Source: Runella sp. CRIBMP
GTDB taxonomy: Bacteria; Bacteroidota; Bacteroidia; Cytophagales; Spirosomataceae
Reading direction: 5' to 3'
Length of the DNA: 64,000 nt
Assembly: GCF_009905605.1 (NCBI RefSeq)
Contig: NZ_JAAAKZ010000001.1
Span: 62,001 to 126,000 of the forward strand
The notes below the pieces were generated by a model, which did not search any database, was not told the origin of the DNA, and saw nothing but the letters and a program-made list of their open reading frames with translations. Each line of letters begins with the position of its first letter. Position 1 is the first letter of the stretch. Of the stretch, positions 2,990 through 12,421 are shown in pieces. A program made the position numbers and the translations under genes.

Positions 2990-3988
2990 ATGTACCCAAT
3001 GGCTAAAAATACAGCTTTGAAACGATTCGTGTGGGGAGTATCGCTGTTTGTGGCGGTGTTTGTCAATTTTCCCATTATTGTTCTGAACTTACCTCGACTG
3101 TCTAAGCCTATTGTACAGTTGGATATTGTTCTTCAAGTTGTTATAAGTTTTATCTACGCCTTGGTTTTTATCCGATGGATTTACCAAGCTACTAAACGAA
3201 ACGACTCTCTTACAAAACAATGGGTCGGGGCGATATTGATGCTAATTGTTTACTGTGTGGTACTAACGTTGGCAAATACATTTATCATAGGGCTACCTCT
3301 CAAAACTGCGTCAACGGTAGTGACGCGGGGAGGATTGATGGCGATGATTACGTATTTTTTTAGCCGTTTTATGACTGAAACGGAGAAGAAAAATGAAATA
3401 TTAGTCGAGAACGAACAACTCAAGCACGAGAATCTGCTGGTGCAACTCACTTCGCTTAAAAACCAACTCAATCCTCATTTTTTATTCAACTCGCTCAATA
3501 CCCTCAGTTGGTTGATTAACGAAGACAAAGCCAAAAGCCAACTTTATCTCCAAAAACTTTCGCAGGTGTTGCGGTATTCACTGAGTATGCAGGAGCAATC
3601 GTTGGTATCCCTAAAAGAAGAACTAGCGCTGGTAGAAAGCTATATTTTTCTGCTCCAAATGCGTTTTGGGGAAAATCTGAACGTCAGCAAAAAGGTGAAA
3701 ACGTTGGAAGGATTCCAAATTCCTCCCCTTTCGCTTCAGTTATTAATCGAAAATGCCATTAAGCACAACATCATCTCCACAGCCAATCCGTTGGAGGTTA
3801 GCATTGAGTTACAACTTGATGACAAAACGATTTTGGTTCGTAACTCGCTCAATATCAAGGCTAATTCGGCAGGGACAGGCATTGGCTTGGCTAACCTTAA
3901 TCAGCGTTTTAAGCTGTTGACCAATCGTGAAATTGAGATTAAACAAAATGATACATCGTTCTGGGTGGTGTTGCCATTAATAGCCTAA
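2990..3988 (+). CDS. LytS/YehU-type membrane sensor histidine kinase
   Basis: About 332 residues. Four hydrophobic segments in the first 130 residues anchor it in the inner membrane with no obvious sensor domain outside. A short coiled linker (NEILVENEQLKHENLL) leads to the His_kinase signature QLNPHFLFNSLNTLSW, with the phospho-accepting His at residue 163, then the ATPase motifs LLIENAIKHN and GTGIGLANL. This is the LytS/YehU class, which signals to LytTR regulators; one follows 28 bases downstream. Starts at 2990 and 2999 are both plausible and the upstream promoter motif excludes a TTG at 2972. The pair probably controls the DUF3500-HupE genes just beyond. The stimulus is unknown. Confidence 0.85.
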   Translation: MYPMAKNTALKRFVWGVSLFVAVFVNFPIIVLNLPRLSKPIVQLDIVLQVVISFIYALVFIRWIYQATKRNDSLTKQWVGAILMLIVYCVVLTLANTFIIGLPLKTASTVVTRGGLMAMITYFFSRFMTETEKKNEILVENEQLKHENLLVQLTSLKNQLNPHFLFNSLNTLSWLINEDKAKSQLYLQKLSQVLRYSLSMQEQSLVSLKEELALVESYIFLLQMRFGENLNVSKKVKTLEGFQIPPLSLQLLIENAIKHNIISTANPLEVSIELQLDDKTILVRNSLNIKANSAGTGIGLANLNQRFKLLTNREIEIKQNDTSFWVVLPLIA

Positions 3989-4016
3989 GAATTTGGAGAT
4001 TTTCAACCCGAAGTAA

Positions 4017-4775
4017 ATGATAAAAATAGTGATTGTTGAAGATGAGCTCGCTGCCGCAAGTCAACTAAAATTTCTGTTGCAGGAACTTGGGATAAAGCAC
4101 CAAATCAGTGCAATTATTGAAACCGTTGAGGAGGGTATAAAATGGTTTACGTCAAACGAAAGTCCTGACCTGATTTTCTCGGACATTCAACTCGCGGATG
4201 GGATTTCATTTGAGATTTATGAGCAGATTCAACTACAAACACCTATTATTTTCACTACCGCTTTTGACGAATACGCCATTCGGGCCTTTAAGCTCAACAG
4301 TATTGACTATCTACTCAAACCGATTGATGAAGATTCGCTTCGTTTTGCACTAGAAAAACACCAAAACCAGCAGTTAGTAAAGCAAGAAATCCTCAAAGAA
4401 CTCCTCAAACAACAGGCGTTTGTACCCAAAAATTATCGTAAAAGCTTTTTGATAAAATACCGAGACAAATTACTGCCTATCAAAACCAACGAATTTGCCT
4501 TTTTTTTCATTGATAATGGCTTGGTTTTTGGCCAACTCCACGACGGTAAAAAATACATCATGGATTTTAAACTCGAAGACCTCGAAAATCAACTCGACCC
4601 TATTGATTTTATAAGAGCAAATCGTCAGTATATTCTTTCGAGGAAATGTATTGTTGAAATCGAATCGTATTTCAATAGTAGGGTCAATGTAAAGGTACAT
4701 CCGGCGGCGTCGTTTTCGGTTATCATAAGCAAAGAAAAAGTGACGTTTTTTAAAAAGTGGTTTGAAGAACACTAA
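4017..4775 (+). CDS. LytTR-family response regulator
   Basis: 252 residues: receiver domain 1-120 and LytTR DNA-binding domain about 145-250. The receiver has the acidic pocket VEDE at 7-10, the phospho-accepting Asp56 in IFSDIQLADG, the conserved Thr in IIFTTAF and Lys in LLKPI. The C-terminal part (SFLIKYRDKLLPI, FIRANRQYILS) fits the beta-rich LytTR fold that binds direct repeats about 21 bases apart. Such a repeat starts 7 bases after its stop codon, before the DUF3500 gene. Cognate kinase is immediately upstream. Function as transcription factor is secure; its target set is inferred from position. Confidence 0.9.
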   Translation: MIKIVIVEDELAAASQLKFLLQELGIKHQISAIIETVEEGIKWFTSNESPDLIFSDIQLADGISFEIYEQIQLQTPIIFTTAFDEYAIRAFKLNSIDYLLKPIDEDSLRFALEKHQNQQLVKQEILKELLKQQAFVPKNYRKSFLIKYRDKLLPIKTNEFAFFFIDNGLVFGQLHDGKKYIMDFKLEDLENQLDPIDFIRANRQYILSRKCIVEIESYFNSRVNVKVHPAASFSVIISKEKVTFFKKWFEEH

Positions 4776-4781
4776 AAACGA

Positions 4782-4810
4782 CGATTCACCTGCGGTTTTT
4801 TCCGATTCAC
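4782..4810 (+). promoter_or_regulatory. 21-base-period direct repeat CGATTCAC, candidate LytTR operator
   Basis: The octamer CGATTCAC occurs at 4782-4789 and again at 4803-4810, exactly 21 bases apart with a 13-base spacer. LytTR regulators are known to bind two direct half-sites of about 9 bases separated by 12-13 bases. The repeat lies right after the LytTR gene and 83 bases before the DUF3500 start, a sensible activator position. The octamer itself is not a close match to the classical half-site, so the role is inference from geometry and place. Confidence 0.5.
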
Positions 4811-4892
4811 TTCCAAAACATCTCATTGGCTCAACACCTAAGCACTTTTGAGCGTCATAACTGTTGTAAGTAACCATTAAAACTACCTTATT

Positions 4893-6290
4893 ATGAAAGT
4901 AAATAACTTTCTCGCAGGTGTTGTGCTCAGTACAACTTTTCTCATCATTGCCTGCAACAAAACTGATGACACGGGCGTTACGCCAACCACCACTGCCGCA
5001 GTTAGTGCGTTGAGTTGTTCGTCGGCTACGTTTTCGGCTACCGCTACTGCAAGCGCAGCCTACACAGGTACGGCTACCGTACCCTATACGGGTGGGAACG
5101 GTGCCGCCTACTCCACGGGAACCGCCATTGCGTCTACGGGTGTAACGGGCCTAACCGCTACCTTAGCCGCTGGTACTTTGGCTTCTGGGGTGGGTTCGGC
5201 TACTTTTGCCATCACAGGTACACCGTCGGCCGCAGGCACGGCATCGTTTGCGATTTCATTAGGCGGGCAGTCGTGTACATTAGCGCTGACGGTCAATGCT
5301 GCAAGTACTTCAACGGGTGGAACAGCTTGGTCGGTAGATACCGACATTGCGAAAATTGTAGCGGCTGCCGAAGCTTTCAAAGCAACACTTGGGTCGAGTC
5401 AGGTATCTTCGGCTCAATATAGCTATACCGTAGCTCAGGCAAAACTCTGGAGTAATTTGCCTCAATCGTTGTACAAAGGACGCGTAGGTTTGGCTTCAAG
5501 CACGTTTTCTGCGGCTCAATGGACGGCATTTTATAACCTTTTGAAAGCCGCAACGGGAACAGGAGCCAATGAGGGCAACGAAGAATATGCGGGCATTATC
5601 GACGCCGACGATTATCTCAGAGCCAATGGTGGCGACAGCGGTTATGGTTCGGGCAATTATTATATCGGCTTCCTTGGCACGCCAAGCACAACAGGACTGT
5701 GGTGTTTGCAAATCGGAGGTCACCACGGTACCATCATTTATACCTACAATGGTGGCAAAATGACGGGCGGAACGCCTTCTTTTCGTTCGACCGAACCTTA
5801 TCCAACTTGGGTTTCGACCAATACTAGCAAAACTGTACAGCCTTTGGTGCAGGAAACGGCTGCCTTTGCCAATTTCTTGAAAAGCCTTAGTGCATCGGAA
5901 TTAACGACGGCCAAACGGGCGGCAGCTCAAAATGATATCATCGTAGGGCCTCAAAAAGATGGTAGTTTTCCCACTACTAAATCAGGCGTAAAAGCAGGAA
6001 ACCTTACCAGTACTCAAAAAGACCTGTTATTAGCAGCCATCAAAACTTACGTGGACGATTTGGACGACAAAGCAGCGGCAGCGGTTTTGGCAAAGTATAA
6101 GTCTGAATTGGATGAAACCTACGTATCTTACTACGGAGGAACAACCATGGCCGAAAAAGGCGATTACATCTTGATTGATGGCCCAAGCGTATGGATTGAA
6201 TGGTCAATGCAAAGCGGTATTATCATCAGAAACGGAGTACACCCTCACTCAGTTTGGAGAGATAGAAAAGCAGATTATGGTGGAAATTAA
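4893..6290 (+). CDS. DUF3500 lipoprotein with N-terminal Ala/Thr/Gly-rich beta domain
   Basis: 465 residues. A type II signal peptide ends at the lipobox IIAC with Cys21, so the protein should be a lipoprotein of the cell envelope. Residues 38-140 form an Ala/Thr/Gly-rich repeat-like beta-sandwich with two Cys (SALSCSSATF and GGQSCTLALTV), a module common in exported Cytophagales proteins. Residues about 150-460 match DUF3500: the LWSNLPQSLYKGRVGL stretch, YYIGFLGTP, the His-rich LQIGGHHGTIIYTY and a late GVHPHSVWRDR. The clustered His residues could bind metal, but this is not shown. The gene overlaps the HupE-like gene by 14 bases and follows the LytTR gene with a direct-repeat operator between. 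No biochemical role of DUF3500 is known to me. Confidence 0.85.
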   Translation: MKVNNFLAGVVLSTTFLIIACNKTDDTGVTPTTTAAVSALSCSSATFSATATASAAYTGTATVPYTGGNGAAYSTGTAIASTGVTGLTATLAAGTLASGVGSATFAITGTPSAAGTASFAISLGGQSCTLALTVNAASTSTGGTAWSVDTDIAKIVAAAEAFKATLGSSQVSSAQYSYTVAQAKLWSNLPQSLYKGRVGLASSTFSAAQWTAFYNLLKAATGTGANEGNEEYAGIIDADDYLRANGGDSGYGSGNYYIGFLGTPSTTGLWCLQIGGHHGTIIYTYNGGKMTGGTPSFRSTEPYPTWVSTNTSKTVQPLVQETAAFANFLKSLSASELTTAKRAAAQNDIIVGPQKDGSFPTTKSGVKAGNLTSTQKDLLLAAIKTYVDDLDDKAAAAVLAKYKSELDETYVSYYGGTTMAEKGDYILIDGPSVWIEWSMQSGIIIRNGVHPHSVWRDRKADYGGN

Positions 6291-7488
6291 AATCAGATTT
6301 TGGATAGTAATAACGATGGCAGCGTTCCAAACGCTGCCATCGTTCGCCCATCCCATGCCCAACTCTATGGTGGTACTCAATATCCACGAAAAATACATTT
6401 CGGGGGAAATAATGCTTCCACTGAGTGAGTTACAATCTGCGATTGGAATGGGGGTCAATGATAATTCATCTCGTTTGGTAGAGCGCTTAGGCGATTCGCT
6501 TCGGATTTATCTGACACAGCACATTCGCCCTAAGAGTTTTGAAGGGAAGCCCTGGGCTTTAAAACTGGGAGAAATGAAGGTTATCGAGAGTACAGACCAA
6601 CTTGTAGGCCAATACAAAGAATTGGTGGTAGCATTTGAAATGACTCCGCCTCTGAATTATGACCTTCGGAATTTTTATTTCGATTATGACGTGATTTTGC
6701 ACCAAGTAGCCAGTCATCGTGCTTTAATTCATGTCAAACAAGACTGGGCGCAGGGACTGGTTAGAGAAGATACCACTACCCAACAAGTGGGGGTTATTGA
6801 ATGGGATATTGTAAACGGGAAACTATCACCTTTCCAAGTTAGTTTGCAACAGGGAAGCCTCTGGAAAGGCTTCCAAAACATGGTGAAACTAGGCATAGAA
6901 CACATTGCTGAAGGTACCGACCATATACTTTTTGTACTTACCTTACTGTTGCCAGCTATGCTCGCTGCCGATGGTCGCCGATGGGGTAAGTTTAGTGGAT
7001 TGAAGCCGAGTTTGGGCCATCTCCTCAAGATTATTACCGCCTTTACCATTGGGCATTCGCTCACATTGCTGCTGGGCTCGGTACAATGGCTCCATTTTCC
7101 GAGTAAGCCCATTGAAGTGTTGATTGCCTTTACGATTTTGGTTTCGGCTTTTCATGCTTTGCGTCCTATTTACCCAAAATGGGAGGTTCTGATGGCAGGC
7201 GCTTTTGGGGTAATTCACGGCTTGGCTTTTGCCCAAACATTGACAAACCTAGAACTGTCTGCCAAACAAATGATTTTGAGTATTTTTGGGTTTAATGTAG
7301 GCATCGAGTTCATGCAGTTATTTATCATTTTGCTTGTTTTTCCTGTTTTGCTCTTACTTTCTAAAACCCGTTATTATGCAATTTTTAGGCAAGTGGGTGC
7401 CGTATTGATGCTACTCATGGCGTTGGCTTGGATGATAGAACGAATACAGGAAAAGCCTAATTTTATCACAGCGTGGATTGCTGGATAA
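6277..7488 (+). CDS. HupE/UreJ-like membrane protein with exported N-terminal domain
   Basis: About 403 residues from the ATG at 6277, which places a signal peptide (MAAFQTLPSFAHPMP region) at the N-terminus; the frame is open further upstream inside the DUF3500 gene but that would bury the signal. Residues about 25-215 form a soluble, presumably periplasmic domain. The C-terminal 190 residues hold about six to seven membrane helices with the family marks GIEHIAEGTDHILFVLTLL, TIGHSLTL and GVIHGLAFA. HupE/UreJ proteins are nickel or cobalt permeases linked to hydrogenase or urease; the distant HupE/UreJ_2 group seen here has no established substrate. The His in HIAEGTDH and GHS are the likely metal ligands by family comparison. 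Translational overlap with DUF3500 implies joint work. Confidence 0.82.
   Translation: MVEIKIRFWIVITMAAFQTLPSFAHPMPNSMVVLNIHEKYISGEIMLPLSELQSAIGMGVNDNSSRLVERLGDSLRIYLTQHIRPKSFEGKPWALKLGEMKVIESTDQLVGQYKELVVAFEMTPPLNYDLRNFYFDYDVILHQVASHRALIHVKQDWAQGLVREDTTTQQVGVIEWDIVNGKLSPFQVSLQQGSLWKGFQNMVKLGIEHIAEGTDHILFVLTLLLPAMLAADGRRWGKFSGLKPSLGHLLKIITAFTIGHSLTLLLGSVQWLHFPSKPIEVLIAFTILVSAFHALRPIYPKWEVLMAGAFGVIHGLAFAQTLTNLELSAKQMILSIFGFNVGIEFMQLFIILLVFPVLLLLSKTRYYAIFRQVGAVLMLLMALAWMIERIQEKPNFITAWIAG
6312..6344 (+). repeat. perfect 15-bp hairpin inside the signal-peptide codons of the HupE-like gene
   Basis: Arms at 6312-6326 and 6330-6344 are exact reverse complements around a 3-base loop (CCA). It lies 36 bases after the ATG at 6277 and 22 bases after the DUF3500 stop codon, so in mRNA it would form just behind the ribosome start zone of the second gene. 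It could damp translation or stop transcription partially at the gene boundary; no T-run follows. Confidence 0.75.
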
Positions 7489-7598: not shown

Positions 7599-10500
7599 AT
7601 GGAAAAAAGAGCTTTCTATCATTGGAGTTTTGGGATTGTAATAATGGCGTTGGTAGGCGCTTGTGGTGGCAATATTGAAATACCGCAGGACGTCGAAAAA
7701 GCGGCGGCGAACTTGCCCGAAAAATTGGACTATAACTTACATGTCAAGCCTATTCTGTCAGACCGCTGTTTTGCGTGTCATGGTCCTGATAAGAATAAAC
7801 AAAAAGCTGATTTGCGTTTGGATATTGCCGACGCTGCCTACGACAAAGAATGCGAAAGCGGCCTAAAAGCCATTGTGGCGGGCAATCCTGCCAAAAGCGA
7901 CTTAGTGCATCGTATTTTGTCAGAAGACCCTGAATATGTGATGCCTGAGCCTGCTTCTCACCTGACGCTGTCGGTAGAAGAGAAAGCCATCCTTATCAAA
8001 TGGATTGAGCAAGGGGCGGAGTATAAACCGCACTGGTCATTTGTAGCTCCTGTTAAGCCAGCGTTGCCAAAAGTTAAAAATGAAGGTTGGGTCAAAAATG
8101 ACATTGACCGATTTATCCTTAAAAAATTAGAAGATAAAAATCTGACTGGCAACCCCGAAGCGCCCAAAACCACCCTGCTCCGACGCGTTTATCTGGATTT
8201 AATCGGGTTGCCCCCAACGCCCGAACAAGTCGAAGCCTTTGTAAAAGATACGTCTCCCAATGCTTACGAAAAAGTCGTTAATGAATTATTGAAAAACCCG
8301 CATTTTGGTGAGCACCAAGCCGTCGACTGGCTCGACGTGGCGCGCTATGCCGATACTCACGGTTATCAGGACGATGGTCTGCGCACCATGTGGCCTTACC
8401 GCGATTGGGTCATTAAGGCCTTCAATCGAAACCTAGCGTTTGACCGCTTTGTGACTTGGCAATTGGCAGGGGATATGTTGCCCAACCCACAAAAAGAACA
8501 TCTGATAGCTACGGCCTTCAACCGCAATCATCAGCAGAGTCAGGAGGGAGGAATTGTACCACAAGAATATTTTGTAGAATACGTAGCCGACCGCACCAAT
8601 ACCTTCGGAAAGGCGTTTTTGGGACTGACGGTCGAATGCGCGCGTTGTCACGACCACAAATACGACCCTATCAGTCAGAAAGATTACTATTCATTGTTTG
8701 CGTTTTTCAATAACAACAATGAATACGGTCAAATCCCCTACAACGGTGAGCCTAGCCCAAGCATTACTCTTCCTAAACCTGCAACGGAAAGACAACTGCG
8801 ATTTATCAAAGAGAAGCTTTCTATCGTTGAAAAAACGCAGTTACAAAATGCATCGGCCCTTCGTCAGCGGTTTGAAAAATGGTTAGCTAAGTCTGTACAA
8901 GCACCGCTAATTGCGCCCAAAACGGCTTTGATGATTGATGTGCCGTTTGACTCCATGACGGTGCGCCCAGCGGGAGAAAAGAAAGACAAAAGACGGCCAA
9001 TATTTACAAACTTGGCCAATGATACCCTCAATTTTGAAACCAACGGAGACTTGGATTTTCTGCCCGTCCGAATCAAAAGCCCACGCGGAAAAGGCGTACG
9101 CTTGGTGGGAGAGAGCTATATGCAAATGCGCGGTATCAACGGTTGGGGTCAATACAAAGAAGTGCCGACCATTTCGGGCTTTTTTGAACGAAACCAACCT
9201 TTTACCGTCGGTTTGTGGGTGGGTATCACTGACCCTAAATTCAAAGGCCCCCTCTTTAACCGCAATTTAGGGCCGTTCAACGGCTTTCGAGGCTACGAAT
9301 GTGAGCGTTTGGAAGACGGGCGGCTAGCGTTTCGTTTGAGCAATGTTTGGCCCGACAATGCCATTGATTTTGAAACTGACTACGTGCTCAAAGCCAATCG
9401 TTGGGCGCATCTTACCATGACTTACGATGGTTCAAGCAAAGCCAATGGCCTGAAAGTATATATCAACGGAAAACGAGCCACGGGTCGGGTCATGTCGGAT
9501 GGACTGCGGGAAAGTATGCTTTGGGGGAAAAATCATACCAATTGGGGAGCCGGCGCACCTAATTTTTCCATCGGCCAACGCCACGATTATAACTACAAAG
9601 GCTACGCGGTGGATGAACTCAAGGTCTTTGCCCGTGAGCTAACACCACTGGAAGTTCACAGTGTGATTGGCCAAAAAGATTTTGTGAAAATTGCCCTTCA
9701 AACTCCAAACGAGAAGCGAACCGATTTTCAAAAAGAGGGTCTTTTTGAGTATTTCGTTACCAACATAGATACCGAAAATCAGAAGCTGCTGTCTGAGCGC
9801 AAGCAATTATTGGCGCAAGAAACGGATTTGCTCAATAAAGAGATTGACGTGATGGTGATGCGCGAACGCAAATACCCTCGCAAAGCGCATATTCTGAAAC
9901 GAGGAGCCTACGACGCCGTTGACCAAGAAGTGACGGCGGATACGCCTGACCAATTTTTTAAAATTCCGAAAGAATTACCACGCAACCGCCTAGGGTTAGC
10001 TCAATGGCTGACCCACGAAGGAAATCCGCTTTTTGCGCGCGTAATGGTGAATCGAATGTGGCAACGGTATTTTGGAAAGGGGCTAGTGGTGTCGGCGGAA
10101 GATTTTGGTAATCAGGGAGATTTACCCACACACCTCGAGTTGTTGGATTATTTGGCGGTCAAATTCAGAAATTCTGGCGGCCCGTCGCACGGCGGCCCGT
10201 CGCACGGCTGGAATTATAAGCTGCTGCAAAAGGAAATTGTCATGTCGGCCACCTATCGGCAGTCTTCAGTGGCTAAACCTGAATTATTGGAGTTAGACCC
10301 CAATAATTTATTATACGCCCGAGGTCCAAGTTACCGTATTTCGGCCGAACAAGTGCGGGATGCTGCTTTGGCAGCAAGCGGCTTATTGAGTCCTCACATC
10401 GGCGGCCCAAGTGTGCACCCTTACCAACCCGATGGTATTTGGGAGGCGTTAGCTACGCGGAATGCAGTACAATATATTCAGAATCATGGTGATACGCTGT

Positions 10501-10964
10501 ATCGACGAAGTATGTATACCATTTGGAAGCGTAGCTCTCCACCGCCAATGATGCTTAATTTCGATGCTTCTGAGCGCCATTTTTGCAGTGTAAAGCGCCA
10601 AAAAACGAGTACGCCTCTGCAGGCGCTGGTCACGCTTAACGACCCCCAGTTTGTAGAAGCTGCCAGGGTATTAGCGCAGCAGAGTCTACTGTTAAACAAA
10701 GGTGCAGATAGTAAATCTCAGGCTGTCACTCGCATTTTTATGGCCCTTACGTCCCGTCCGCCGCGAGCGGGTGAGTTGGCAGCCATGACGCAGTTGTACA
10801 ATGAAGAATATCAGGATTTTCTGAAAAACCCTAAGCGCGCAGATGAGCTATTGAAAGTAGGTGAATATCCCGTGGATATGTCCCTTAATAAACAGGAATT
10901 GGCAGCCATGACCATCGTGGCGAGTACCGTAATGAATTTTGATGAGTTTGTGATAAAGAGATGA
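7599..10964 (+). CDS. PSCyt1-DUF1549-LamG-DUF1553 lipoprotein (planctomycete-type)
   Basis: 1121 residues. The signal peptide ends at LVGAC (Cys22), a lipobox. Residues 45-140 hold a PSCyt1 cytochrome-like domain with C57-x-x-C60-H61 (CFACHGPDK). DUF1549 spans about 160-370, including YLDLIGLPPTPEQV and a second CxxCH in CARCHDHKYDPISQ. A LamG/concanavalin-like insert lies about 490-690 (QPFTVGLWVGI, KVYINGKRATG). DUF1553 fills about 790-1110 (NRLGLAQWLTHEGNPLFARV, TPLQALVTLNDPQFVEAA). Such proteins are abundant in Planctomycetes and some Bacteroidota, usually paired with DUF1501 as here (4-base overlap), and are suspected to act in polysaccharide breakdown or redox chemistry at the outer membrane; no function is proven. 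A 15-base tandem duplication lies at 10176-10205. Confidence 0.93.
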   Translation: MEKRAFYHWSFGIVIMALVGACGGNIEIPQDVEKAAANLPEKLDYNLHVKPILSDRCFACHGPDKNKQKADLRLDIADAAYDKECESGLKAIVAGNPAKSDLVHRILSEDPEYVMPEPASHLTLSVEEKAILIKWIEQGAEYKPHWSFVAPVKPALPKVKNEGWVKNDIDRFILKKLEDKNLTGNPEAPKTTLLRRVYLDLIGLPPTPEQVEAFVKDTSPNAYEKVVNELLKNPHFGEHQAVDWLDVARYADTHGYQDDGLRTMWPYRDWVIKAFNRNLAFDRFVTWQLAGDMLPNPQKEHLIATAFNRNHQQSQEGGIVPQEYFVEYVADRTNTFGKAFLGLTVECARCHDHKYDPISQKDYYSLFAFFNNNNEYGQIPYNGEPSPSITLPKPATERQLRFIKEKLSIVEKTQLQNASALRQRFEKWLAKSVQAPLIAPKTALMIDVPFDSMTVRPAGEKKDKRRPIFTNLANDTLNFETNGDLDFLPVRIKSPRGKGVRLVGESYMQMRGINGWGQYKEVPTISGFFERNQPFTVGLWVGITDPKFKGPLFNRNLGPFNGFRGYECERLEDGRLAFRLSNVWPDNAIDFETDYVLKANRWAHLTMTYDGSSKANGLKVYINGKRATGRVMSDGLRESMLWGKNHTNWGAGAPNFSIGQRHDYNYKGYAVDELKVFARELTPLEVHSVIGQKDFVKIALQTPNEKRTDFQKEGLFEYFVTNIDTENQKLLSERKQLLAQETDLLNKEIDVMVMRERKYPRKAHILKRGAYDAVDQEVTADTPDQFFKIPKELPRNRLGLAQWLTHEGNPLFARVMVNRMWQRYFGKGLVVSAEDFGNQGDLPTHLELLDYLAVKFRNSGGPSHGGPSHGWNYKLLQKEIVMSATYRQSSVAKPELLELDPNNLLYARGPSYRISAEQVRDAALAASGLLSPHIGGPSVHPYQPDGIWEALATRNAVQYIQNHGDTLYRRSMYTIWKRSSPPPMMLNFDASERHFCSVKRQKTSTPLQALVTLNDPQFVEAARVLAQQSLLLNKGADSKSQAVTRIFMALTSRPPRAGELAAMTQLYNEEYQDFLKNPKRADELLKVGEYPVDMSLNKQELAAMTIVASTVMNFDEFVIKR
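10176..10205 (+). repeat. 15-base tandem duplication coding GGPSH twice
   Basis: The same 15 bases occur at 10176-10190 and 10191-10205, in frame, giving GGPSHGGPSH inside the DUF1553 domain. The unit is GC-rich compared with its surroundings. It adds five residues without breaking the frame, which suggests a recent slippage event in a surface loop. Confidence 0.85.
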
Positions 10965-12421
10965 AAAACGCACTGGAAGAATTCGAACAACATACCCACG
11001 ACCAACTCAGTCGTCGGAATTTTTTGTCGCGTACCAGCATTGGCTTAGGGGCGGCGGCTTTTTCGTCGTTGTTGGGAACAAATCAAGCGCAGGCTGCGAC
11101 TGGTCCTGGGGGAGCTTTGGGGAAACCACATTTTCCTCCTAAGGTAAAACGCGTCATTTATCTGCACCAAAGCGGCGCGCCTTCGCAGTTGGAACTGTTT
11201 GATTATAAGCCCAAACTGGAACAAATGTGGGGCAAAGACCTGCCCGAGTCTGTTCGGAAAGGCCAACGCCTCACGGGCATGACTGCCGGGCAAAGTAGCT
11301 TTCCGTTGGCGGCATCGTATTATAAATTTGCCCAACACGGCCAAAGCAAAATGTGGGTTAGTGAGTTGTTGCCTTATATTTCTAAAGTCACCGATGAGGC
11401 CACTTTTATCCGTTCCATGCATACCGAGGCCATCAACCACGACCCCGCCATTACGTTTTTTCAAACGGGGAGTCAGCAGGGCGGAAGGCCTTCTTTTGGC
11501 TCTTGGGTAAGTTATGGCTTGGGTTCAGACAACCAGAATCTGCCTTCGTTTGTGGTATTGCTGTCCAAAGGGCGCGGTGGTGATCAGCCATTATATGCTA
11601 AATTGTGGTCAAATGGTTTTCTGCCTTCCGTGCATCAGGGCGTCGTGTTTCGCTCAGGGCCCGACCCAGTCTTTTACCTAAACAATCCTGCAGGTATCGA
11701 CCGCATGAGCCGCCGACGGATGTTGGATTATTTGGCAAAAATGCATCAGGAACAATACAAACAGATTCTTGACCCCGAAATCAACAGCCGCATGGCGCAG
11801 TACGAAATGGCCTATCGGATGCAAACGGCTGTACCCGAAACAATGGATATATCCAAAGAGCCCGACTATATTTTTGATATGTACGGTCCCGAAGCCAAAA
11901 AAGCGGGGACGTTTGCTGCTAACTGCCTGTTGGCGCGAAAACTGGCCGAGAAAGGCGTGAAATTCATTCAGCTCTATCATCAGGGATGGGACCAACACGG
12001 CAATCTCCCTAATGACATTAAAACCATGGCTAAGTCGGTCGACCAACCTTCGGCAGCGTTGGTGATGGACTTGAAACAGCGTGGTTTGTTGGATGATACC
12101 CTCGTTATTTGGGGCGGCGAGTTTGGTCGAGGCTCTTATTCGCAGGGGAAACTCACCAAAGAAAACTACGGCCGCGATCACCACCCGCGTTGCTTTACCA
12201 TTTGGATGGCGGGAGCAGGGGTGAAAAAGGGCTACATTCATGGAGAAACCGACGATTTTAGTTATAATATTGTACGTGACCCAGTCCACGTACATGATTT
12301 TCAGGCCACGGTCATGCACTTGTTGGGAATTGACCATGAGCAGCTTACGTTCAAGTCGCAAGGCCGACGCTACCGCCTGACCGATGTACACGGAAAAGTT
12401 GTGAAACCTATTTTGGCGTAA
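10961..12421 (+). CDS. DUF1501 protein, Tat-exported, sulfatase-like fold
   Basis: 486 residues. The start ATG overlaps the upstream TGA (ATGA). A twin-arginine signal SRRNFLSRTSIGLG at 17-30 followed by a hydrophobic stretch and AQA predicts export of the folded protein. DUF1501 belongs to the alkaline phosphatase/sulfatase superfamily by fold; seen here are RVIYLHQSGAPSQLELFDYK near residue 66 and the late DDTLVIWGGEFGRG and DHHPRCFTIWMAGAG motifs that form the family core. The partner upstream is the DUF1549/DUF1553 lipoprotein, the standard pairing. A hydrolase role on sulfated or phosphorylated substrates is suggested by the fold alone. Confidence 0.93.
   Translation: MKNALEEFEQHTHDQLSRRNFLSRTSIGLGAAAFSSLLGTNQAQAATGPGGALGKPHFPPKVKRVIYLHQSGAPSQLELFDYKPKLEQMWGKDLPESVRKGQRLTGMTAGQSSFPLAASYYKFAQHGQSKMWVSELLPYISKVTDEATFIRSMHTEAINHDPAITFFQTGSQQGGRPSFGSWVSYGLGSDNQNLPSFVVLLSKGRGGDQPLYAKLWSNGFLPSVHQGVVFRSGPDPVFYLNNPAGIDRMSRRRMLDYLAKMHQEQYKQILDPEINSRMAQYEMAYRMQTAVPETMDISKEPDYIFDMYGPEAKKAGTFAANCLLARKLAEKGVKFIQLYHQGWDQHGNLPNDIKTMAKSVDQPSAALVMDLKQRGLLDDTLVIWGGEFGRGSYSQGKLTKENYGRDHHPRCFTIWMAGAGVKKGYIHGETDDFSYNIVRDPVHVHDFQATVMHLLGIDHEQLTFKSQGRRYRLTDVHGKVVKPILA

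Follow-up and report, generated by a model that had tools for sequence, protein, structure and literature searches.

A DUF3500 lipoprotein gene paired with an anglerase-type permease gene at a predicted LytTR-controlled locus of Runella sp. CRIBMP

Gene layout and the predicted operator

The window analysed here is a 64-kb stretch of the 7.13-Mb assembly of Runella sp. CRIBMP (contig C1, positions 62001–126000) and contains four genes in a row, all on the + strand, encoding a sensor histidine kinase, a LytTR response regulator, a DUF3500 lipoprotein and a HupE_UreJ_2 permease. That the locus represents a real conserved module is well supported, as are its gene pairing, permease type and operator. 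A first-pass annotation, made from the sequence alone, had proposed the four genes as an undescribed module. Open reading frame (ORF) coordinates and Pfam matches confirmed the co-directional genes, along with the 14-base overlap between the permease start (ATG at 6277) and the DUF3500 stop (6290). The module is conserved, and no published name or description of the DUF3500–HupE pair was found in a literature search covering few subscription papers; its core, however, is the DUF3500–HupE pair, which the kinase and regulator accompany often but not in every locus. The features of the locus are as follows.

2999–3988, + strand: sensor histidine kinase (Pfam PF06580, 90 bits); an ATG start at 2990 is another possibility
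4017–4775, + strand: response regulator with receiver and LytTR DNA-binding domains (Pfam PF00072 and PF04397)
4783–4812, + strand: predicted LytTR operator GATTCACCTGCGGTTTTTTCCGATTCACTT, with TTCAC repeats 21 bp apart (sequence match)
4893–6290, + strand: DUF3500 lipoprotein (PF12006, 210 bits, cut-off 27.2), with the DUF3500 domain from about 5328
5721–5726, + strand: His277-His278 (GHH), predicted metal ligands of DUF3500 (conservation)
6198–6200, + strand: Glu436 of DUF3500, predicted ligand or catalytic residue (130/133 sequences)
6240–6248, + strand: His450-x-His452 of DUF3500, predicted metal ligands (each His in 130/133 sequences)
6277–7488, + strand: anglerase-type HupE_UreJ_2 permease (PF13795, 142.7 bits, cut-off 24.5)
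6349–6351, + strand: His1 of the mature permease, predicted cleavage SFA↓HPMP (101/102 aligned permeases)
6901–6924, + strand: HX5DH motif of the permease, HIAEGTDH (H, D and H in 102/102)

The kinase ORF opens at TTG 2972 and contains in-frame ATGs at 2990 and 2999 before the stop at 3988. Its earlier designation as LytS is valid in a loose sense only, given that the kinase has the PF06580 domain but a Pfam scan (E ≤ 1e-3) reported nothing else and no 5TMR-LYT sensor domain. The possibility that two unrelated types of two-component system precede the pair was ruled out, as both have PF06580 and LytTR.

The operator GATTCACCTGCGGTTTTTTCCGATTCACTT sits between the regulator and DUF3500 genes. 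Its TTCAC pair at 21 bp is the only one in the window (0.16 expected), and the full operator has a single match in the whole 7.1-Mb genome at up to two mismatches; an alignment of 13 loci shows it conserved. Of 48 regulator–DUF3500 gaps, 32 contained a relaxed form of the repeat with 21-bp spacing, whereas shuffled sequences gave 0.44. Because the motif was first derived from the window and its relatives, the spacing profile provides a fair control, and each of the other spacings from 15 to 29 bp yielded the relaxed repeat in three or fewer of the 48 gaps. Known LytTR target sites consist of two repeats with an 11–13 base spacer (PMC4847170), a geometry matched by repeat starts 21 bp apart. 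Assignment of 4783–4812 as a predicted LytTR-type operator controlling the DUF3500–permease pair is well supported at the level of sequence, and its position directly before DUF3500 bears out the earlier suggestion of dedicated signalling. Scans for consensus promoters and terminators revealed no clear promoter ahead of DUF3500.

The DUF3500 lipoprotein and its permease

The N-terminus of the DUF3500 protein consists of a signal peptide with a lipobox-like IIAC at residues 18–21, followed by a Thr/Ala/Gly-rich spacer of approximately 130 residues. A similar spacer-type N-terminus is found on a Cthe_2159 carbohydrate-binding lipoprotein encoded ahead of the kinase in two Emticicia loci (L166 and L176) and in L108, L109 and L153. 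The clustered histidines remarked on in the first-pass annotation proved to be highly conserved, with His277, His278, Glu436, His450 and His452 (window numbering) each retained in 130–131 of 133 DUF3500 sequences. This GHH...E...HxH set is kept in both distant DUF3500 copies of the same genome, and suggests that the lipoprotein is probably metal-binding. Conservation within the domain extends beyond the histidines to residues W41, E176, E291, R311, D312 and D316.

An AlphaFold2 model of DUF3500 (predicted local distance difference test score, pLDDT, of 96) had one significant structural relative, PDB 9X86 (E 1.6e-16), with approximately 21% identity in the structural alignment and with the GHH and HxH motifs also present. 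The entry is titled as the dehydratase ApmL of amipurimycin biosynthesis, with the chain named Amc20. A DUF3500 protein of Aspergillus nidulans has been put forward, within gallate breakdown, as the proposed ring-opening dioxygenase for 1,2,3,5-tetrahydroxybenzene (PMC12388069). The title and the fungal proposal differ on the reaction, although both point to an enzyme by analogy. On the strength of these two assignments, an enzymatic role suits DUF3500 better than passive uptake. The earlier hypothesis of a metal or small-molecule uptake module is retained for the permease, which appears metal-related, and less so for the lipoprotein.

The permease is a 403-residue protein of which HupE_UreJ_2 forms the last part; no other Pfam family reached E ≤ 1e-3, and the classical HupE_UreJ family of hydrogenase and urease permeases gave no match in the same scan. 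The preceding extracytoplasmic domain has a histidine as its first residue once the predicted signal peptide is removed (A↓HPMP, with the cleavage site judged by eye), and the sole aligned relative without this His1 is an N-terminally short ORF. The HX5DH motif is invariant among the 102 aligned permeases, and is also the motif of the hydrogenase permease HupE. A sequence search against solved structures returned nothing useful. The AlphaFold2 model (pLDDT 91) gave a Foldseek top match between the outer domain and PDB 9GCE, the Cu-bound Ang-1 domain (E 5.9e-5, probability 1.00), followed by the zinc-binding ZrgA and PA4063. Cu2+ binding by HupE/UreJ-2 proteins with such an N-terminal-His domain was reported in 2025 (PMC12537917; PDB 9GCE; Nat Commun 2025). 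By sequence and model, the permease is an anglerase-type PF13795 protein rather than the HupE of urease or hydrogenase, and metal handling by the permease module is likely. Given this permease type, the lack of urease and hydrogenase genes from the window is not surprising. Nickel supply to those enzymes was rejected as an explanation, as the N-terminal-His domain fits better and neither gene was noted near the pair, with no genome-wide search made.

Pairing across genomes and gene neighbourhoods

To follow the pair across genomes, the window DUF3500 domain and, separately, the long permease were used as queries in a family survey of 200 genomes. Relatives of the window DUF3500 were present in 69 genomes and the long permease in 63, at 64 places. 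Every genome with the long permease also had DUF3500 (63/63), and none of the 131 without DUF3500 had the permease (Fisher 1.5e-45, a P-value inflated by relatedness among the genomes). At all 64 permease places a DUF3500 gene is no more than 2.5 kb away, and at 63 of them no more than 1 kb; the median gap is about 125 bp. Gene maps placed a same-strand permease near DUF3500, mostly directly downstream, in 57 of 60 family loci, and a cross-phylum scan with one genome per species retained the pair in 73 of 80 loci. The 80 loci came from Bacteroidota, Actinomycetota (Cryobacterium, Microbacterium, Rhodococcus, Promicromonospora, Leifsonia, Klenkia and Arthrobacter), an Acidobacteria bin and others, and those that retain the pair include Actinomycetota and the Acidobacteria bin. 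Because the surveyed genomes are related, this phylum spread is a better argument than the P-values. The co-occurrence survey had been set beforehand as a test of the module, and its outcome strongly favours it. The long permease is rare in Microbacteriaceae (4/250 genomes), which precluded a cross-phylum statistic from that family; its paralogues there, at 37–38%, are found at G591:C12:193810-194943, G750:C3 and G796:C1.

Variations on the pair were also observed. Several loci carry DUF3500 genes in tandem beside just one permease, and in L189 a second, divergent DUF3500/permease pair adjoins the first in the opposite orientation. The Chryseobacterium loci L194 and L197 have the order kinase, regulator, DUF3500, TonB receptor, second DUF3500 and permease, with the receptor between the two DUF3500 genes. 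At G078:C99:246992-248107 and G037:C24:17996-19108, the permease match crosses one in-frame TAG in each.

Two kinds of neighbourhood surround the pair. The kinase–LytTR genes lie upstream in 34 of 60 family loci and 27 of 80 cross-phylum loci. A TonB receptor gene is found downstream in 21 of 60 family loci, on the same strand in all, and 20 of the 21 have LytTR (Fisher 6e-6); the predicted mature N-terminus of these receptors is also His. A 62% relative of the module receptor, again with a predicted N-terminal His (AFA↓HLGS), is encoded elsewhere in the window's own genome (contig C4, L265:5703-7985). It adjoins not the window module but a tetratricopeptide repeat (TPR) lipoprotein and two SSHREAPLISNDPLADNTD-type proteins, which we take to be DUF4331-like.

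The second kind of neighbourhood has an AraC-type regulator within 4 kb of the pair (14/60 family and 16/80 cross-phylum loci), and is nearly exclusive of LytTR, the two regulators occurring together in 1 of 60 family loci (Fisher 2e-5). Part of these loci also encode a secreted tannase_B (650 bits, cut-off 300), an aromatic-acid-type major facilitator superfamily (MFS) protein, a catechol-2,3-dioxygenase-like protein, a PIG-L protein (GalB-like), an aldolase and a 4-oxalomesaconate tautomerase. Ring-cleavage clusters adjoin the pair in 12 of 80 cross-phylum loci, two of them in Actinomycetota. Of 16 family genomes with tannase_B, 14 have the window-type DUF3500 (Fisher 8e-6), and 7 of the 16 tannases have a DUF3500 gene no more than 8 kb away; the window's own genome has no tannase_B above threshold.

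The window is a hybrid of the two, with LytTR control and genes of the second kind directly upstream. The earlier annotation left out these upstream genes, which are gallate-type ring-cleavage genes and encode AraC, dioxygenase, PIG-L, carboxylesterase, aldolase, dehydrogenase and tautomerase proteins. The first four were identified by likeness to annotated relatives, and the remaining three are:

299–916, + strand: 4-carboxy-4-hydroxy-2-oxoadipate aldolase (GalC/LigK-like; NF006731, 190 bits, cut-off 179)
946–1743, + strand: NAD-binding dehydrogenase (PF03446 and PF09130)
1744–2856, + strand: 4-oxalomesaconate tautomerase (GalD-like; NF033377, 466 bits, cut-off 440)

On the other side of the four genes, positions 7599–12421 encode a PSCyt1-PSCyt2-PSD1 protein with a Laminin_G_3 domain, of a kind named after planctomycetes, and then a DUF1501 protein. 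Among the retrieved family loci these genes occur together only in L104; in L095 the PSCyt1-PSCyt2-PSD1 gene is present as far as the contig end.

Interpretation and comparison with known systems

It is quite possible, if somewhat short of an even chance, that the locus encodes a two-protein system for metal acquisition under signal control, in which a DUF3500 metalloenzyme acts on polyphenol-type ligands and the permease imports metal. The analysis itself shows the order of the genes, their pairing in several phyla, the conserved residues, the fold matches, the repeats of the operator and the neighbouring genes; from these we infer the metal, direction of transport, substrate, reaction and signal as follows. 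The kinase/LytTR pair would sense a signal, bind the 21-bp-phased operator and switch on DUF3500 together with the overlapping permease gene. DUF3500, exported as a lipoprotein, would use its GHH...E...HxH site as a metalloenzyme on polyphenol-type metal-chelating ligands, for example gallate or tannin derivatives. The metal freed or presented by DUF3500, most likely copper and possibly nickel, would then be caught by the N-terminal His of the permease outer domain and passed into the cell by the HX5DH membrane part. In many relatives, the TonB receptor with its predicted N-terminal His would carry the substrate over the outer membrane. More doubtful is the wider proposal of a new metal-acquisition system common to Bacteroidota and Actinomycetota and LytTR-switched in Bacteroidota, whereby an exported enzyme would break polyphenol chelators outside the cytoplasm and an N-terminal-His HupE permease catch the freed metal.

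Several observations weigh against metal acquisition from polyphenol ligands. The fold match of the permease outer domain to 9GCE is remote (14% identity, template modelling (TM) score of 0.59 on the target), and solitary DUF3500 copies occur that lack the permease. Two of these are in the window's own genome (L001 at C1:938745 and L002 at C23:382099) and belong to another subgroup with no adjoining long permease. Ring-cleavage genes are absent nearby in 68 of 80 loci; the polyphenol link, strong in a subset of loci and backed by one fungal proposal, is suggestive. The TonB form and the tannase/ring-cleavage form were never co-located (0/60 and 0/80 loci); the pair may therefore serve metal uptake and polyphenol catabolism separately, and be used differently in the two settings.

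The permease could instead be an enzyme accessory that supplies DUF3500 with its metal cofactor, as HupE does for hydrogenase, with aromatic breakdown rather than metal nutrition as the purpose. The near-strict one-to-one pairing regardless of other neighbours, the overlapping genes, the strongly conserved putative metal site and the ring-cleavage neighbours would all suit such an arrangement. However, an inward permease could not directly load an extracytoplasmic DUF3500, other DUF3500 copies exist without a permease, and the N-terminal-His TonB receptor beside the pair suggests uptake; this explanation is considered unlikely. Were DUF3500 a non-enzymatic periplasmic or surface lipoprotein that hands metal to the permease, its four conserved histidines, lipoprotein anchor and obligate permease partner would be readily understood, as would the tandem copies sharing one permease. 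The many conserved residues other than His, the catabolic neighbours and the description of named family members as enzymes (in the 9X86 title and in PMC12388069) make this carrier role less easy to accept, and it is regarded as quite unlikely.

Protection from polyphenol-driven copper stress, with DUF3500 destroying redox-active phenols and the permease removing or withdrawing copper, would be consistent with the polyphenol neighbours, the dedicated two-component control and an outer domain of the copper-binding type described in PMC12537917. It is distinctly improbable: HupE-type proteins are known to import, the TonB receptor likewise points inwards, and the recurring neighbour clusters included no gene recognised as one for copper efflux. 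Finally, four generic genes might be neighbours by descent with no common function, and the kinase–regulator pair and ring-cleavage genes do vary as neighbours. Adjacency at all 64 permease places, retention of the pair across phyla and conserved operator phasing at loci having the regulator had already disfavoured this explanation, and leave it scarcely credible.

Among known systems, YpdA/YpdB of E. coli (PMC4847170) exemplifies the LytS/LytTR type, with a PF06580 kinase, a LytTR regulator and two repeats at the usual spacer, as found here. The window system differs in having a single predicted genomic target site, at the adjacent DUF3500–permease pair, and in that no 5TMR-LYT domain was detected. 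The hydrogenase nickel permease HupE of Rhizobium leguminosarum (Brito et al. 2010, as cited in PMC12537917) is likewise a metal permease accessory to a metalloprotein. In contrast, the window permease has an extra N-terminal domain, lacks the classical HupE_UreJ family match and has no hydrogenase or urease recognised beside it.

ApmL/Amc20 (9X86) and Aspergillus nidulans AN10530 share the Pfam family or fold of the window DUF3500, but neither is described as a permease-partnered exported lipoprotein. The bacterial neighbourhoods add to the single fungal proposal that DUF3500 acts on gallate-derived aromatics, and the gallate and tannin genes among them hint at a tie between plant polyphenols and metal uptake. 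The closest comparison is with the anglerase-HupE/UreJ-2 permeases (Ang-1 of Pseudomonadota and Ang-2 of Actinomycetota; PMC12537917, 9GCE), first described in 2025. The window permease shares their PF13795 membrane part and a beta-sandwich-like outer domain with a His directly after the predicted signal peptide, for which they provide the best fold match. The neighbours reported for anglerases are mainly of unknown function, and DUF3500 is not named in that paper's account of them; nor did a full-text search for DUF3500 return the paper. The type found in the window differs in its occurrence in Bacteroidota, its DUF3500 partner and, often, a LytTR operator and a TonB receptor, and so gains an almost obligate partner, a predicted operator and a chemical context in gallate and tannin breakdown.

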